From a virus: 24,633 nucleotides of DNA. A model generated the notes under the pieces. That model made no database searches and was not told the origin of the DNA. It was given only the letters and a program-made list of their open reading frames with translations. The stretch lies in IMG/VR virus record IMGVR_UViG_3300021964_000507, positions 1 to 24,633 of that record; one strand, given 5' to 3'. How positions within the stretch are numbered: the first letter of the stretch is position 1; every line of letters begins with the position of its first letter. The position numbers and the translations under genes are program-made. Positions 3,429-22,495 of this stretch are shown here, in pieces.

Positions 3429-3575
3429 CTAACTTCCGCATCTTGGACATTTTTTTCTATCAAACTTACTATCTATCCATACTTTACCATAATACAATAT
3501 AAATAGCCAAAAAGTAAATAAAACTCCCTCAATATAACTTAAATCATTCCAAGCATCTAAAACTATATTTTCCAT
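3429..3575 (-). CDS. 48-residue membrane mini-protein with C-terminal CPRCG
   Basis: This ORF reads from an ATG at 3575 with a strong GGGAGG about 6 bases upstream. The product has one hydrophobic segment (residues about 16-34, VLFTFWLFILYYG), a short basic linker and the C-terminal motif KKCPRCGS. It overlaps the upstream 70-residue gene by 13 bases, ends 10 bases before the holin start and fills an otherwise unexplained gap. The predicted topology is one membrane helix with a Cys2 tail that could be half of a zinc or disulfide site. It could be a lysis accessory, for example an antiholin or a partner of the neighbouring Cys-containing proteins; that is inference. Confidence 0.7.
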   Translation of the reverse strand: MENIVLDAWNDLSYIEGVLFTFWLFILYYGKVWIDSKFDRKKCPRCGS

Positions 3576-11381: not shown

Positions 11382-12293
11382 TTAAGCCGCTCCTTCAGTT
11401 CCAAATATTCCTCTCCAGTCTGTAAAACCGAATGAATATCTTTCACGAACTTTATAACGAACATTACCAGTTTCAAAATCGCCCTCTACACCTCTCTTTA
11501 ATGGAGACCTTTGGAACATTTTGAGACCATCTGGTACGTCTGTCTTGATGAAGAATGCATCGCTATCTGTTAACCTTCTCATAATATGATAACCTTGAGG
11601 TAGGTAAGAACCAGAACGGATAGCATTGATATCATTATCAGCTGTTCCCACTCTTAATTCACTATTCAATATTCTTTGAGCAGTAAAGGTATATGCAGTT
11701 GGGATAATTAACATTTGTCCCTGTGCCGCAATTCTAAGACCTTTATCGTCTTTCATATCTGCAATTTGAATTAAAAGTGACTCTAATGATGTCTCACTCA
11801 AATCAGCGGCGGTTGCTAGAGTATTACTCTGGTTACCACTTGATGTTGGGTGAGCAGTAGATAATAATGCCACTCCATCACCACCTGCATAAACTCCTGC
11901 AGATGTTGCATTGTTTAAAATTGTTGCCGCTTTAATTTCTTTTGTAGAAGACATACTTCTAGCTAATGCCTTTGTATATCTTGAAGCGATAGAACCATAT
12001 AGTCCATCTTCTTCAGCTTCTTCTGTAATAGAAAATGCTAAGGCGACAGTTTCATGTTGATATCTAGCAGTCCACTGCTGAGATGCTGTATCATAAGATA
12101 TTGGGGCACCTTCGTTCTTTGTTGGTGCATTTCCAAAACCTGTTAACAACACATCTTCTTCAAAAGCTTTGTTTGATGTATTTGCATCAAAAACCTTTGC
12201 GAATTCTGGTGGATAACTATCATACTCTAAGCCGAACAGGGTATTCAAACCCGGCTCAAGCATCTTTGCAAATTGTGCTCTATTCATAGCCAT
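11382..12293 (-). CDS. major capsid protein (HK97 fold, Mu gpT-like)
   Basis: This 303-residue protein builds the icosahedral head. It begins with NRAQFAKMLEPGLNTLFGLEY and continues with FDANTSNKAFEEDVLLTGFG. It then has the long central helix region with ITEEAEEDGLYGSIASRYTKALARS, a predicted E-loop and P-domain like layout, and A-domain strands such as QGQMLIIPTAY. The C-terminus (VRYKVRERYSFGFTDWRGIFG) is typical of gpT-like major head subunits. Scaffold and minor head genes lie upstream and a hairpin lies downstream, as expected for a highly expressed gene. AGGAG is about 10 bases before the ATG. Met3 is an alternative start. The N-terminal dozen residues recur in the mini-protein at 14984-15127. 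Confidence 0.9.
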   Translation of the reverse strand: MAMNRAQFAKMLEPGLNTLFGLEYDSYPPEFAKVFDANTSNKAFEEDVLLTGFGNAPTKNEGAPISYDTASQQWTARYQHETVALAFSITEEAEEDGLYGSIASRYTKALARSMSSTKEIKAATILNNATSAGVYAGGDGVALLSTAHPTSSGNQSNTLATAADLSETSLESLLIQIADMKDDKGLRIAAQGQMLIIPTAYTFTAQRILNSELRVGTADNDINAIRSGSYLPQGYHIMRRLTDSDAFFIKTDVPDGLKMFQRSPLKRGVEGDFETGNVRYKVRERYSFGFTDWRGIFGTEGAA

Positions 12294-13364: not shown

Positions 13365-14297
13365 TTAGTTATCCTTCCTGTTTAAAGTGTTAATTTCTTT
13401 AGCATACTTTTTAAGATGCTCAGGGTCTGTAATACCTAACTCTCTTGCCATTCGTAGTTGCTCCGAAGTCATTCGTATTCTGTTTCCTCTGTAAGCCTGA
13501 CCACCTGTAGTGGGTGCAACTGCTTGTCTACTTTGTCTAGGCCTCTCTATAGAAACTTCCTTTTTAGATATTAGCTCGGGAAAGTTCTTTTGTAAACGAT
13601 TATTTAATTCATCATAATATGATGCATCGTTCTTATCATATCCCTCAATATCAAGTTGAACATCTATTGCCCTAGCCATTGCAGTTTCTTTTTCAAAACC
13701 TTTAGCATTAAACCAATTATTTTCTCTCCACCAACTCATTGCTCTTTCTGGTGCAGGATTTGTGGCTTGTTGCTGTGCTCGTCCAACGTTTGGCGAGGTT
13801 GTCTCGCTCTGTTGTCGTTGTGCCCTCGCTTGATTTTGAAGTGCAATAGCAGTTTTTATATCTACCAATTCTTCATTAAATTTAACTTGCTTGTCAGTAT
13901 CACCTTCTTCAATGGCTTTTGCTAAAGCTCTTTTAACTAAATTATAATGTTCTGCTAATTGATTTTGCCCTTGTGACTCGTTAGATTTTTCAATCTTTTC
14001 GAGTCTTTTGGTCAAACCTTGAACAGTATTTTGTAGATTTTGAGCTTCTTCTTCAGCTATTTTCTTTTCACGAATTATTTTTTTTATTCTTCTTTGTACC
14101 GCCGAACTCATATCTTCATCGGATATTTCTGTTTTTTTGGCTCCTGTTGATTTTTCTTCTTTTGTATTTGTTATTGGTTCATCGTTAACTTCAATTTCAA
14201 TATCTTGTTCTTTTAATTTATTTTTAGCTTCATCAATACTTTCATTAATTTCGGCATTGACTTCATCTAAAACCTTTTCGTCTATATTATTTTCCAT
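13365..14297 (-). CDS. head scaffolding protein
   Basis: This 310-residue protein has the composition of phage scaffolds. It has an acidic, helical N-terminal third and a central coiled coil (about residues 70-160 with KIIREKKIAEEEAQNLQNTVQGLTKRLEKIEKS). A Gln-rich linker follows, then a conserved MSWWRENNWF block and a basic C-terminal helix (MTSEQLRMARELGITDPEHLKKYAKEIN) likely to contact the capsid protein. It sits two genes upstream of the major capsid gene. The start is the ATG at 14297, which has GGAGG 7 bases upstream. A TTG five codons earlier (14312) has no ribosome-binding site and overlaps the GGAGG itself, so it was rejected. No protease domain is fused. Confidence 0.85.
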   Translation of the reverse strand: MENNIDEKVLDEVNAEINESIDEAKNKLKEQDIEIEVNDEPITNTKEEKSTGAKKTEISDEDMSSAVQRRIKKIIREKKIAEEEAQNLQNTVQGLTKRLEKIEKSNESQGQNQLAEHYNLVKRALAKAIEEGDTDKQVKFNEELVDIKTAIALQNQARAQRQQSETTSPNVGRAQQQATNPAPERAMSWWRENNWFNAKGFEKETAMARAIDVQLDIEGYDKNDASYYDELNNRLQKNFPELISKKEVSIERPRQSRQAVAPTTGGQAYRGNRIRMTSEQLRMARELGITDPEHLKKYAKEINTLNRKDN

Positions 14298-14320: not shown

Positions 14321-14731
14321 TTAAATATAAGCAGTTACTTTTACACCTTCTGGCAAGATTGATGTAATCTCGTCATCATTGAGTAAAATAAACCGAACAT
14401 TATTAACAACAATCTTTTGACCTGCATATTTGCCAAATGTAACAAAATCGCCGACATTAGGTGTTGTTTCTTGCCTCCATTTAGCACCTGTATCTCTGTC
14501 TCGGTATGCCAATTCACCTAATGCAACAACATGACCATGAGCAGTTAGAATTTGCTGATTATCTTTAGCAGTTTCTGGTAATATTATACCACTTTTGGTC
14601 TGTGTAGCGATTTCTGCTGGTTGAATTAGAACCTTCCAGTTCAAAGGTTTTGGAAGTTGGTGAGATGCAATAGTCGCTTTTGACAAACTATCTGCATATA
14701 TTTTTCCGTGTTGATGAGTCACGTTATTCAT
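14321..14731 (-). CDS. groES: GroES-like co-chaperonin
   Basis: This 136-residue protein has the GroES fold signature: LNWKVLIQPAE, the mobile loop QTKSGIILPETAKDNQ (which contacts GroEL), GHVVALGE, then VGDFVTFGKYAGQKIVVNNVRFILLNDDEI. It would cap host GroEL for folding of a phage protein, most likely the capsid protein, as T4 gp31 does. Compared with bacterial GroES it has about 30 extra N-terminal residues and an insert after GELAY. The ATG at 14731 lies only 1 base from AGGAG. A GTG at 14722 is 9 bases from the same AGGAG and is the better-placed start. No phage GroEL is seen here. Confidence 0.9.
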   Translation of the reverse strand: MNNVTHQHGKIYADSLSKATIASHQLPKPLNWKVLIQPAEIATQTKSGIILPETAKDNQQILTAHGHVVALGELAYRDRDTGAKWRQETTPNVGDFVTFGKYAGQKIVVNNVRFILLNDDEITSILPEGVKVTAYI

Positions 14732-14921
14732 CTCCTATATTTATTTGTTTGATTGTTTCGTCAATCATCTCACAAGACTCTTCTAAACCTTGTGCAATGC
14801 CAACGTTCTTTTGGTATGATTGAAAATCAGACATTCGTCCGTCAACCATTTGGTTCGCTATTTCCGCTTTCTTCGTTTGTAGGTTCTTCTTTATCAGATT
14901 TAATAGGTCCATTGTGTTCAT
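14724..14921 (-). CDS. small helical conserved protein before groES
   Basis: This 65-residue protein is mostly helical, with the conserved stretch GRMSDFQSYQKNVGIAQGLEESCEMI. This stretch recurs in small proteins next to groES or scaffold genes in marine phages; function unknown. A strong GGGGAGG lies about 8 bases before the ATG at 14921. The first 27 codons overlap a second ORF (14842-14997) in another frame. In that overlap its codons end unusually often in G or C (AAC, GAC, CTG, ACG, AAG, GCG), unlike the rest of the gene. Its stop TAA lies inside the groES start region, so the two are coupled. Confidence 0.8.
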   Translation of the reverse strand: MNTMDLLNLIKKNLQTKKAEIANQMVDGRMSDFQSYQKNVGIAQGLEESCEMIDETIKQINIGDE

Positions 14922-14997
14922 TTATAGATGCCTCCCCAGACATTGAAACACCAGTAACCACGATTGTTACATCTTGTTGCTGATTATTTTTTTCCAT
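14842..14997 (-). CDS. possible 51-residue acidic protein overlapping the next gene
   Basis: The ATG at 14997 lies 5 bases before the TAA of the Lys-rich mini-gene and has a weak AGGCGG upstream. The product has a beta-like start (DVTIVVTGVSMSGEAS) and an acidic, polar tail (SDKEEPTNEESGNSEPNG). It would explain the 62 bases between the flanking genes that nothing else covers. It overlaps the 65-residue gene by 80 bases. In that overlap its own frame reads as GAA, GGA and AGC-type codons while the partner's third bases shift to G/C, as expected if both frames are used. The family is unknown. Confidence 0.45.
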   Translation of the reverse strand: MEKNNQQQDVTIVVTGVSMSGEASINEHNGPIKSDKEEPTNEESGNSEPNG

Positions 14998-15127
14998 ATC
15001 CGCCTTTACCTTTTTTCATTGTCTTTTTTTTCATTGTTTTTTTCTTTGCCCCTTTTTTTCCACCATGCATTGCCATTTTTTTGTTTCCTTTCTCCATAAG
15101 TTTTGAAAACTGTGCTCTATTTAACAT
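14984..15127 (-). CDS. Lys-rich mini-protein with a capsid-protein-like N-terminus
   Basis: This 47-residue protein has 17 lysines. Its first residues, MLNRAQFSKLMEKG, match MNRAQFAKMLEPG of the major capsid protein (8 of 12 aligned residues identical). After that it becomes a basic tail with a KKKTM repeat and GGYGKK. The start is the ATG at 15127, with AGGAG 6 bases upstream. A TTG upstream at 15193 has no ribosome-binding site and was rejected. It is the first gene of the leftward head operon, ahead of groES and scaffold. The basic tail suggests binding to DNA or to an acidic partner, and the shared N-terminus suggests docking to the same site as the capsid protein; both are inference. Confidence 0.75.
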   Translation of the reverse strand: MLNRAQFSKLMEKGNKKMAMHGGKKGAKKKTMKKKTMKKGKGGYGKK

Positions 15128-21039: not shown

Positions 21040-21297
21040 CTACCAAGCCTTACATGACCAATATCTTGCTGTTGTCTTATCTGTGGTAGTATCACAGTTA
21101 TGTCTTGCTCTGAATGATTTTCTTCTAGCAGGTGATGTAACCTTAATCCTCATATTTGGGTCGCCAAATGTAACCTTTTTTACTTTGCCCTTGTCCATAA
21201 CATAAACCATAGATTTCTTTTTACCATAAGATGGTTCACCTTTTCTAATTCGTCTAGGTTTATTAAGAGTTACCTTTCTACCTTTATATTCAGCCAT
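21040..21297 (-). CDS. basic conserved phage protein, unknown function
   Basis: This 85-residue protein has a pattern I know from many aquatic phages: GRKVTLNKPRRIRKGEP, then YVMDKGKVKKVTFGDPNMRIK, then SPARRKSFRARHNCDT...KTTARYWSCKAW. It is strongly basic. The two cysteines (68 and 82) flank the conserved Trp-rich end and could pair. Family members lie close to portal or capsid genes, and the function has not been assigned to my knowledge. It ends at the base before the 972-residue gene's ATG and overlaps the preceding stop as TAATG. Confidence 0.8.
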   Translation of the reverse strand: MAEYKGRKVTLNKPRRIRKGEPSYGKKKSMVYVMDKGKVKKVTFGDPNMRIKVTSPARRKSFRARHNCDTTTDKTTARYWSCKAW

Positions 21298-21761
21298 TAA
21301 TCATCTCCGTAAAAGATATCTTCTAAAACACTATCAATAAAATTATCTGCCTCAGAGTCTGCAAATCCTTGATTTTCAAATTGTATTTGAGCATCTTGCA
21401 TGAATATTCTTGCATCTTCATAGTCATCTTTTTCTAAGGCTTCTTTTAATGCCTCTGCCATTTTCTTATTTGCAAACTGAAAACCTTCATCGTCTTCATA
21501 TGCTTCAAATGGATTTTTTTCTTTTTGCATTATATCATCAATCACTTTTTGATATATCTTCACTCTATTTGGGTCTACCATTCTTGGTTCTGATTTTGTT
21601 ACACCCATCATTTTGAGTTTTTGTTCTTCATTAGTATTAACAGGGTCTGCCTTTTCTCTTTTCATTTGCATAAGGTCTGTTAATGCACCTCTTTCTGGTG
21701 CCATTCTATTAGTGATTATCTCTCCTAATGCTCCTGTTATAAATTTACCTAACTTAGCCAT
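21297..21761 (-). CDS. hypothetical helical protein
   Basis: This 154-residue protein has a Gly/Ala-containing N-terminus (MAKLGKFITGALGEIITNRM), a charged helical middle and an acidic C-terminal tail (FADSEADNFIDSVLEDIFYGDD). The N-terminal 20 residues could be amphipathic and membrane-interacting. Coupled by overlap to both neighbours. No family recognised; like its neighbours it could be a head or ejection component. Confidence 0.65.
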   Translation of the reverse strand: MAKLGKFITGALGEIITNRMAPERGALTDLMQMKREKADPVNTNEEQKLKMMGVTKSEPRMVDPNRVKIYQKVIDDIMQKEKNPFEAYEDDEGFQFANKKMAEALKEALEKDDYEDARIFMQDAQIQFENQGFADSEADNFIDSVLEDIFYGDD

Positions 21762-21916
21762 TACTTGCCTTTATGAACTTTTTGTATCTCAAAAGATGCT
21801 TTCTTACTTGCACCTTTGTGTGGTTTGTAACCTCCTGCAGGGTCTTTCATTAATTTAAATGATTTACCACTCTGCATCCAATGATATCCTTTTGGTGCTT
21901 CAACTGATTTTTTCAT
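21761..21916 (-). CDS. 51-residue basic conserved mini-protein
   Basis: An ATG at 21916 with AGAGG 7 bases upstream opens a 51-residue reading frame ending in a TAA that overlaps the next ATG as TAATG. The product has the pattern APKGYHWMQSGKSFKLMKDP.GGYKPHKGASKKASFEIQKVHKGK. The segment KGYHWM..G..FKLM is familiar from small proteins in marine phages. It fills the whole gap between the flanking genes. Strongly basic; function unknown. Confidence 0.8.
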   Translation of the reverse strand: MKKSVEAPKGYHWMQSGKSFKLMKDPAGGYKPHKGASKKASFEIQKVHKGK

Positions 21917-21925
21917 AATAGACCT

Positions 21926-22189
21926 CTATGATTTTTTCTTTTTCTTACCACCTAACAAATCTGCATCTGCTTTTCTTGCTCCACCTTTTCCAGAAACAAA
22001 GCTTTTAACACGACCCATAGCCCATTGATGTGCAGATGTCTTTGGTCTACTGCCAGAACTATAATAAGCACCTAGACCTCTCTTATAGACTTTATCTAGC
22101 TTTTCTTTAGAGAACCTACCTGCTCCCTTGACAGATGAATATTTACCAGATTTCTTTTTTGTGGTGGTTTTCTTCTTGGTTTCTGCCAT
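21926..22189 (-). CDS. DUF5824-like basic protein
   Basis: This 87-residue protein has a Lys-rich start, then the conserved block KLDKVYKRGLGAYYSSGSRPKTSAHQWAMGRVKSFVSGKGGARKADADLL, then a Lys-rich end. The RGLGAYYSSGSRP...W...R..S...G..AR..D pattern is that of the DUF5824 family of phage proteins, whose function is not known. It sits in the run of small basic proteins upstream of the polyvalent protein. The stop lies 9 bases before the start of the 51-residue gene. The coupling is TAATG-like with the preceding gene. Confidence 0.8.
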   Translation of the reverse strand: MAETKKKTTTKKKSGKYSSVKGAGRFSKEKLDKVYKRGLGAYYSSGSRPKTSAHQWAMGRVKSFVSGKGGARKADADLLGGKKKKKS

Positions 22190-22386
22190 TAGGATTTGCT
22201 CCTTTGTTTACTTATCTTATCCATTTGTGCTTTGGTAAGTTTACCTTCTTTGTAAAGTTTGGCAGTTCTTCTTATTTCTCTTTCTCTTGCCTTAGGGTTT
22301 TTGGCACCTGCGACATATTTCTTAGGAGTTCCCTTCTTTGTCTTTGGTACCTTGTTAAACCTTCTTTTTGTTGGTTTTTTTGCCAT
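22189..22386 (-). CDS. small very basic protein
   Basis: This 65-residue protein is dominated by Lys and Arg, with KKPTKRRFNKVPKTKKGTPKKYVAGAKNP followed by a helix (REREIRRTAKLYKEGKLTKAQMDKI). The motif P.KYV.GAKN...R..EI..T is familiar from marine phage proteins of unknown function. Its first 11 codons overlap the previous 46-residue gene in another frame. The preceding gene's C-terminal Lys run and this gene's N-terminal Lys run come from the same bases. DNA binding inside the head is a reasonable guess only. Confidence 0.75.
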   Translation of the reverse strand: MAKKPTKRRFNKVPKTKKGTPKKYVAGAKNPKAREREIRRTAKLYKEGKLTKAQMDKISKQRSKS

Positions 22387-22495
22387 TCTTTTTCTTCTTT
22401 CTTAATTTTGCAAAGTCTGCACTTGTTATCTTTGTTCTAGGCTTTGCTATTCTTGCAAGAGATTTTTGCTTTTTAGAATATTTACTAAATGGCAT
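22355..22495 (-). CDS. 46-residue basic mini-protein
   Basis: An ATG at 22495 opens a frame reading MPFSKYSKKQKSLARIAKPRTKITSADFAKLR in its first 32 residues, then a Lys/Asn tail. The pattern KYS.KQK.LAR.A.PR.KIT..DF..LR recurs in mini-proteins of marine phages. The ATG overlaps the previous gene's TAA as TAATG. The stop lies 32 bases inside the following gene. It explains the gap between the flanking genes. Function unknown. Confidence 0.8.
   Translation of the reverse strand: MPFSKYSKKQKSLARIAKPRTKITSADFAKLRKKKKNGKKTNKKKV

Follow-up and report, generated by a model that had tools for sequence, protein, structure and literature searches.

The N-terminal arm of the major capsid protein (MCP) is a scaffold-binding element in the phages SPP1 and P22. 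In the SPP1 procapsid the N-terminal helix (alpha1*) of the MCP is bound to the scaffold (PMC6813328), and in P22 the hook of the scaffold binds the N-arm of the coat protein at acidic residues of that arm (PMC12005531). The internal proteins IPI-IPIII of T4, which are unrelated to each other, carry an N-terminal sequence of about 10 residues (CTS) that takes them into the prohead; the cargo is interchangeable, and almost any protein can be packaged in that way (PMC7697877). A small protein with a short capsid-assembly motif of a larger assembly protein is also known, as CpmB of SaPI1 has the RIIK motif of the 80alpha scaffold and competes with that scaffold (PMC5644958).

The window, which means the whole analysed stretch of 24,633 nucleotides, is of the CRP-901 type. 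It has a homologous capsid, a GroES and the same late-gene order, and its MCP is 81% identical to the "major head subunit" of Roseobacter phage CRP-902. The features discussed here are the following.

14984 to 15127, minus strand: mini-protein gene, 47 aa, ATG at 15127, AGGAG 5 bases upstream
15086 to 15127, minus strand: N-terminal module of the mini-protein, MLNRAQFSKLMEKG, with a reciprocal profile match to the MCP N-terminus, conserved in 86 distinct mini-proteins
14987 to 15085, minus strand: basic tail of the mini-protein as read from the sequence, 33 aa with 15 Lys
14842 to 14997, minus strand: small ORF overlapping the mini-protein gene, 51 aa, VTGVSMSG motif, kept in CRP-901 and CRP-902
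14724 to 14921, minus strand: conserved late-operon protein, 65 aa, orthologues CRP-901 gp62 and CRP-902 gp62
14321 to 14731, minus strand: GroES-like co-chaperonin, PF00166, PHROG 3188
13365 to 14297, minus strand: probable scaffolding protein, acidic, coiled-coil, precedes the MCP, PHROG 28737 (function unknown)
11382 to 12293, minus strand: MCP gene, PF25209 Phage_capsid_4, PHROG 371
12249 to 12293, minus strand: N-terminal module of the MCP, MAMNRAQFAKMLEPG, start of a predicted helix 5-20 in a low-confidence model

The mini-protein gene has a good ribosome-binding site and opens the late (morphogenesis) operon, where it is followed on the minus strand by the 51-aa ORF, the 65-aa ORF, GroES, the scaffold, two further ORFs and the MCP. 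The product of 13365 to 14297 is probably the scaffolding protein, judged by its composition and gene position. An orthologous mini-protein gene is present in the cultured phages: CRP-901 gp63 is annotated as "hypothetical protein", and the CRP-902 gene is absent from the GenBank annotation (L082 5227-5361, which is OQ401624 38142-38276, minus strand). The VTGVSMSG ORF 3' of the gene is without annotation in both phages. The consulted passages of the paper on these phages (PMC10149686) make no mention of a match to the capsid N-terminus, and no description of the tag motif was found in the open-access literature.

The full mini-protein reads MLNRAQFSKLMEKGNKKMAMHGGKKGAKKKTMKKKTMKKGKGGYGKK. The sequence-only reading had described a 17-lysine tail; the lysine-rich tail is indeed present, but 17 is the number of lysines in the whole protein, of which 15 belong to the tail after MEKG. 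A helix is predicted at residues 4-20 (pLDDT averaging about 78 over residues 1-10), and the prediction places no secondary structure beyond residue 20. Searches of Pfam and PHROG with the mini-protein gave no family match. The HK97-fold capsid domain (PF25209) was not found in it; only the N-terminal module is common with the MCP. The structure model of the MCP itself is poor (pLDDT 52), and therefore the helix of its N-arm is not firmly predicted; no sequence relatives of this MCP were found in the PDB, and comparison of the modelled fold gave weak HK97-like matches to encapsulins and phage capsids, none at E <= 0.001. In one long record (G022, L571 17696-18600) the MCP gene is split over two frames with internal stops, due to a frameshift or a sequencing error.

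The alignment on which the sequence-only reading was built could be reproduced. NRAQFSKLMEKG of the mini-protein and NRAQFAKMLEPG of the MCP are identical in 8 of 12 residues, and AATAGAGCACAGTTTTCAAA and AATAGAGCACAATTTGCAAA agree at 18 of 20 base positions. Among the 990 pairs of N-termini in the window this pair ranks at the top, with a BLOSUM62 score of 48 and the next pair at 22. Profiles built from 86 mini-proteins and from their MCPs rank each other first. When about 39,000 candidate starts were scored, none of the unrelated N-termini reached the MCP median on the mini-protein profile, and only 3 starts labelled as non-MCP ("other") reached the mini-protein median on the MCP profile; the best "other" starts among those listed there are MCP homologues. 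When 3,859 ATG ORFs were searched with a strict motif, MCPs and mini-proteins matched and nothing else. Starts of the NRAQF type, named earlier as possibly common by chance, did not prove so in either the motif or the profile searches. The similarity of the two N-termini is not due to chance.

How far this extends was seen from three scans with different MCPs, in which the MCP start could be read at 235 loci. Loci were counted if the MCP starts with NRxxF and more than 3 kb of upstream sequence is available (124 loci, some contigs being retrieved twice), and the mini-protein ORFs were picked by position and composition, independent of the motif. A lysine-rich ORF is found 2.7-2.9 kb upstream of the MCP in all 124 loci and always heads the late operon; these ORFs represent 86 distinct sequences. 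Relatives without the shared motif, which the sequence-only reading had named as the case against it, were not found: all 124 loci hold the gene, and the xR..F-type motif is kept in all 86 distinct sequences with few departures (N in 79, R in 86, A/S/T in 85, F in 84, L in 85 and G in 76 of the 86). The consensus is N-R-[AST]-x-F-x-x-L-[MI]-x-x-G. The C-terminal ends are usually GY, KY or YGK, and a central M-K-[YH]-G-K-K-K is frequent as well. Mini-profile search found a single tagged protein per genome for 16 of the 17 long CRP-901-type records searched, which is not so in the sister clades. Taken at the level of the aligned residues, the shared N-terminal label is real and conserved, and it is specific to the MCP and the mini-protein in the CRP-901-type set. 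Owing to its low complexity, the mini-protein alignment recovered no more than two confirmed loci when used as a query, and tblastn against phage records matched CRP-901 and CRP-902 or nothing.

In 30 loci of a sister clade, whose MCP starts with MAISRAQLVKELEPG, no such mini-protein is encoded at that place. The gp50 of phage HTVC023P, a basic protein of 46 aa, starts with MAITRGQISKQ, and the MCP of the same phage starts with MAISRSQLVKE. Because of this likeness the viral contigs were scanned for DNA encoding MAI[ST]RAQM, which gave 81 ORFs where only a few matches were estimated to occur by chance. About 67 of them are MCPs of a further clade, starting with MAISRAQMLKELLPGLNALFG or MAISRAQMLKELLPG; the 14 others are nearly all small and K/R-rich (mostly 39-158 aa, 20-50% K+R). 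A second scan (MAI[ST]RAQ...Q) revealed 78 distinct proteins, some small and basic and others forming a group of large, Gly-rich proteins; K+R reaches 25% or more in 31 of the 43 that are shorter than 150 aa. In related phages the MAISRAQ form, which was missed in the sequence-only reading, is present on many further small proteins. MCP and tagged mini-protein were found on one contig in L330, L351, L386, L415, L423, L427, L430, L432, L437, L484, L498, L502 and others. The MCP family was detected in 18 of the 34 records that have a tagged basic mini-protein, compared to 2 of the 42 whose tagged proteins are mostly larger ones (Fisher p = 2e-6, after removal of two self-hits to mini-proteins), and all full-length MCPs in the former records start with MAISRxQ. 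The MCP profile also matches two mini-proteins of 53 aa (MAISRAQMARQLEPGLGSSDKKK... and MAITRAQMARQLEPGLG...) at E near 1e-4. These comparisons show that, at the residue level, the tag follows the N-terminal variant of the MCP by clade: NR[AS]xF mini-proteins occur with NRAxF MCPs and MAISRAQ mini-proteins with MAISRxQ MCPs.

For six complete or long sister-clade genomes (psg01, DSL-LC04, G082, G083, G096, G097) a tagged partner was not found. Their gene table was made with a crude gene caller that lost several known short genes, and absence from it is therefore weak evidence; a census filtered for ribosome-binding sites also misses known cases. Taken as they stand, these genomes suggest that the function is not universal and that the role is dispensable or otherwise met there.

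The N-terminus of the tagged proteins behaves as a movable module. Untagged proteins of related phages match five tagged proteins solely behind the tag (E 1e-5 to 1e-15), with the matches starting at residue 20 in L495, 16-19 in L461, 18 in L366, 41 in L502 and 46 in L423. The bodies of these tagged proteins belong to phrog_727, DUF6496 (PF20106), phrog_17747 and phrog_27331, so that one N-terminal module is found on at least four kinds of bodies. As judged from these comparisons, a conserved and specific tag at the peptide level that is modular has been shown.

In the reading that we prefer, to which a probability of roughly 0.5 is assigned, the N-terminal 12-14 residues serve as a docking tag, common to the MCP and to small basic proteins, which loads the basic body into the head. 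Like the N-arm of the MCP, the tag would fold into a short amphipathic helix, and it would bind the site of the N-arm during prohead assembly, most likely on the scaffolding protein, otherwise on the inner face of the shell. The lysine-rich body, which is presumably DNA-binding, would thereby be carried into the head and could bind the packaged DNA there. Docking where the capsid N-arm docks, as the sequence-only reading had supposed, appears to be the best reading available by analogy to SPP1 and P22, although no second protein with the sequence of the N-arm is described in those phages. Packaging of the mini-protein in the head is inferred from the analogy to T4. As with the CTS, a short N-terminal peptide is found on several unrelated small proteins; the tag described here is in contrast the N-terminus of the MCP itself, and the likeness to the CTS is one of arrangement rather than of demonstrated sequence relation. 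A prohead-protease site of the T4 type ([LI]xE) is not conserved in the 86 mini-proteins, in which positions 9-10 vary; cleavage by a different protease is conceivable. More broadly, and with a confidence that stays somewhat short of even, we propose that in marine phages of the CRP-901/HTVC023P group the N-terminal peptide of the MCP may serve as a movable, interchangeable and capsid-derived head-loading tag on small basic proteins, which would exchange one DNA-binding body for another, unrelated one and would evolve together with the MCP.

If true, a natural tag for encapsulation would have been taken from the MCP itself or be shared with it, and a short tag for bringing proteins into the heads of phages would be at hand. 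A number of small lysine-rich "hypothetical" proteins would gain a function, and the strong conservation of the MCP N-terminus would be accounted for. The tag is present in abundant marine phages as well as in cultured Roseobacter and Pelagibacter phages.

The same peptide on unrelated bodies also bears on the question whether the mini-protein is an assembly regulator and not a cargo. Such a regulator would compete with the N-arm of the MCP for the scaffold, or displace the scaffold, and thereby time, size or terminate head assembly, its basic tail acting on the acidity of the scaffold or on DNA at packaging. The position of the gene, ahead of GroES, scaffold and MCP, is in line with that idea, and the competition of CpmB with the 80alpha scaffold is a precedent (PMC5644958). 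CpmB however copies the C-terminus of the scaffold, whereas here a gene of the phage itself has the N-terminus of the MCP; scaffold mimicry of the CpmB kind was not seen, as the MCP is the only strong partner in the all-pairs comparison of the window, which compared N-termini only. As unrelated basic bodies are swapped freely, which fits a cargo better than a tuned regulator, we regard this role as unlikely.

Large Gly-rich proteins of up to 917 aa on many viral contigs have similar starts (MAITRAQQ.[RK]QML..GG; loci L446-L505, e.g. L463 5822, L447 and L457 6330). HTVC027P gp82 (L324 15165-16184, 339 aa), which starts with MAISRMQQPRQQYGLG, is a further protein with a similar start (MAISRMQQPRQQ), while the MCP of the same phage starts with MAISRGQLVKE. 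Two proteins of the MAITRAQQ type gave weak tape-measure-like matches, as did gp82 in PHROG. The MCP of the phages with large MAITRAQQ proteins was looked for in the contig fragments and not found; with such starts on the large proteins of these phages, the tag may not be capsid-specific. It could be read by a factor that is not special to heads and mark virion or membrane-bound proteins generally, the MCP being one client, for which the similar starts and the tape-measure-like matches speak. Yet the respective records rarely hold this MCP family (2 of 42), and the MAITRAQQ version is set apart by its Q at position 8 and by ...QML..GG. These proteins may therefore be a separate, convergent group, and a general tag of that kind seems rather improbable. 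The gp25-like baseplate proteins of L460 and L492 start with MAITRAQAITQTQKK, and their likeness to the tag is probably chance.

The origin of the shared N-terminus was sought in the codons. The sequence-only reading had assumed that the capsid 5' end was partly duplicated and fused to a basic tail; the basic tail is joined to the module, but a recent duplication or conversion is unsupported by the codon and DNA-level tests. Arginine is encoded by AGA, CGC, AGG, CGT and CGA in the mini-proteins and almost always by AGA in the MCPs, and the same residues have varying codons in relatives (Phe TTT/TTC, Ser AGT/TCA/TCT, Ala varying too). Where the residues are identical, the codon is the same too at a rate of 57% inside a genome, compared to 54% between shuffled genomes. 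Across the relatives 8 to 18 of the first 20 bases agree between the two genes, and since the window is at the top of that distribution, its 18 of 20 is not a general feature. The codons vary while the residues stay; selection therefore acts on the peptide. A nucleotide-level element at both starts, i.e. an operator or RNA site, was also rejected, because the codons change and the 27 bases upstream of the two starts are no more similar than in shuffles. Nucleotide and residue identity within a genome is slightly above every shuffle, which may reflect relatedness. Either an ancient duplication or convergence could be the origin. The expected co-variation was mapped for the variable fifth residue (Q/S/N) on a tree of MCP sequences from which the N-terminus had been left out. 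Mini-protein and MCP change alike in every informative independent pair, but there are only 3-5 such pairs, so that this comparison within the clade is underpowered.

With the duplication untraceable and the likeness spanning only about 12 residues, the two proteins could have a similar helix start and no shared partner, either by convergence on an Asn/Ser N-cap with R, F, L and G or as a functionless old copy of the 5' end. That explanation is already disfavoured, and we consider it distinctly unlikely, as none of the about 39,000 other N-termini matches, the start is conserved over 86 distinct mini-proteins, and a second form of the tag follows a second form of the MCP. A folding signal read by the phage GroES and host GroEL is very improbable, since a mostly disordered protein of 47 aa needs no folding chamber and sister phages with GroES and no tagged mini-protein exist, even though the MCP is a likely GroEL client and all annotated relatives that were examined have the phage GroES two genes downstream.

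Two minor observations concern further small proteins. L025 encodes at 3480 a protein of 56 aa with MPNTRGQMKSQLKGNRK and a body that by eye resembles the window ORF 22355-22495, which would be a possible second tagged gene in a phage of the NRxxF clade; the likeness of the bodies was unconfirmed by BLAST at 1e-4. In the window, small basic proteins are clustered at 21040-22495, one of them with DUF5824 (21926-22189), and this cluster resembles those of sister phages that hold tagged mini-proteins.
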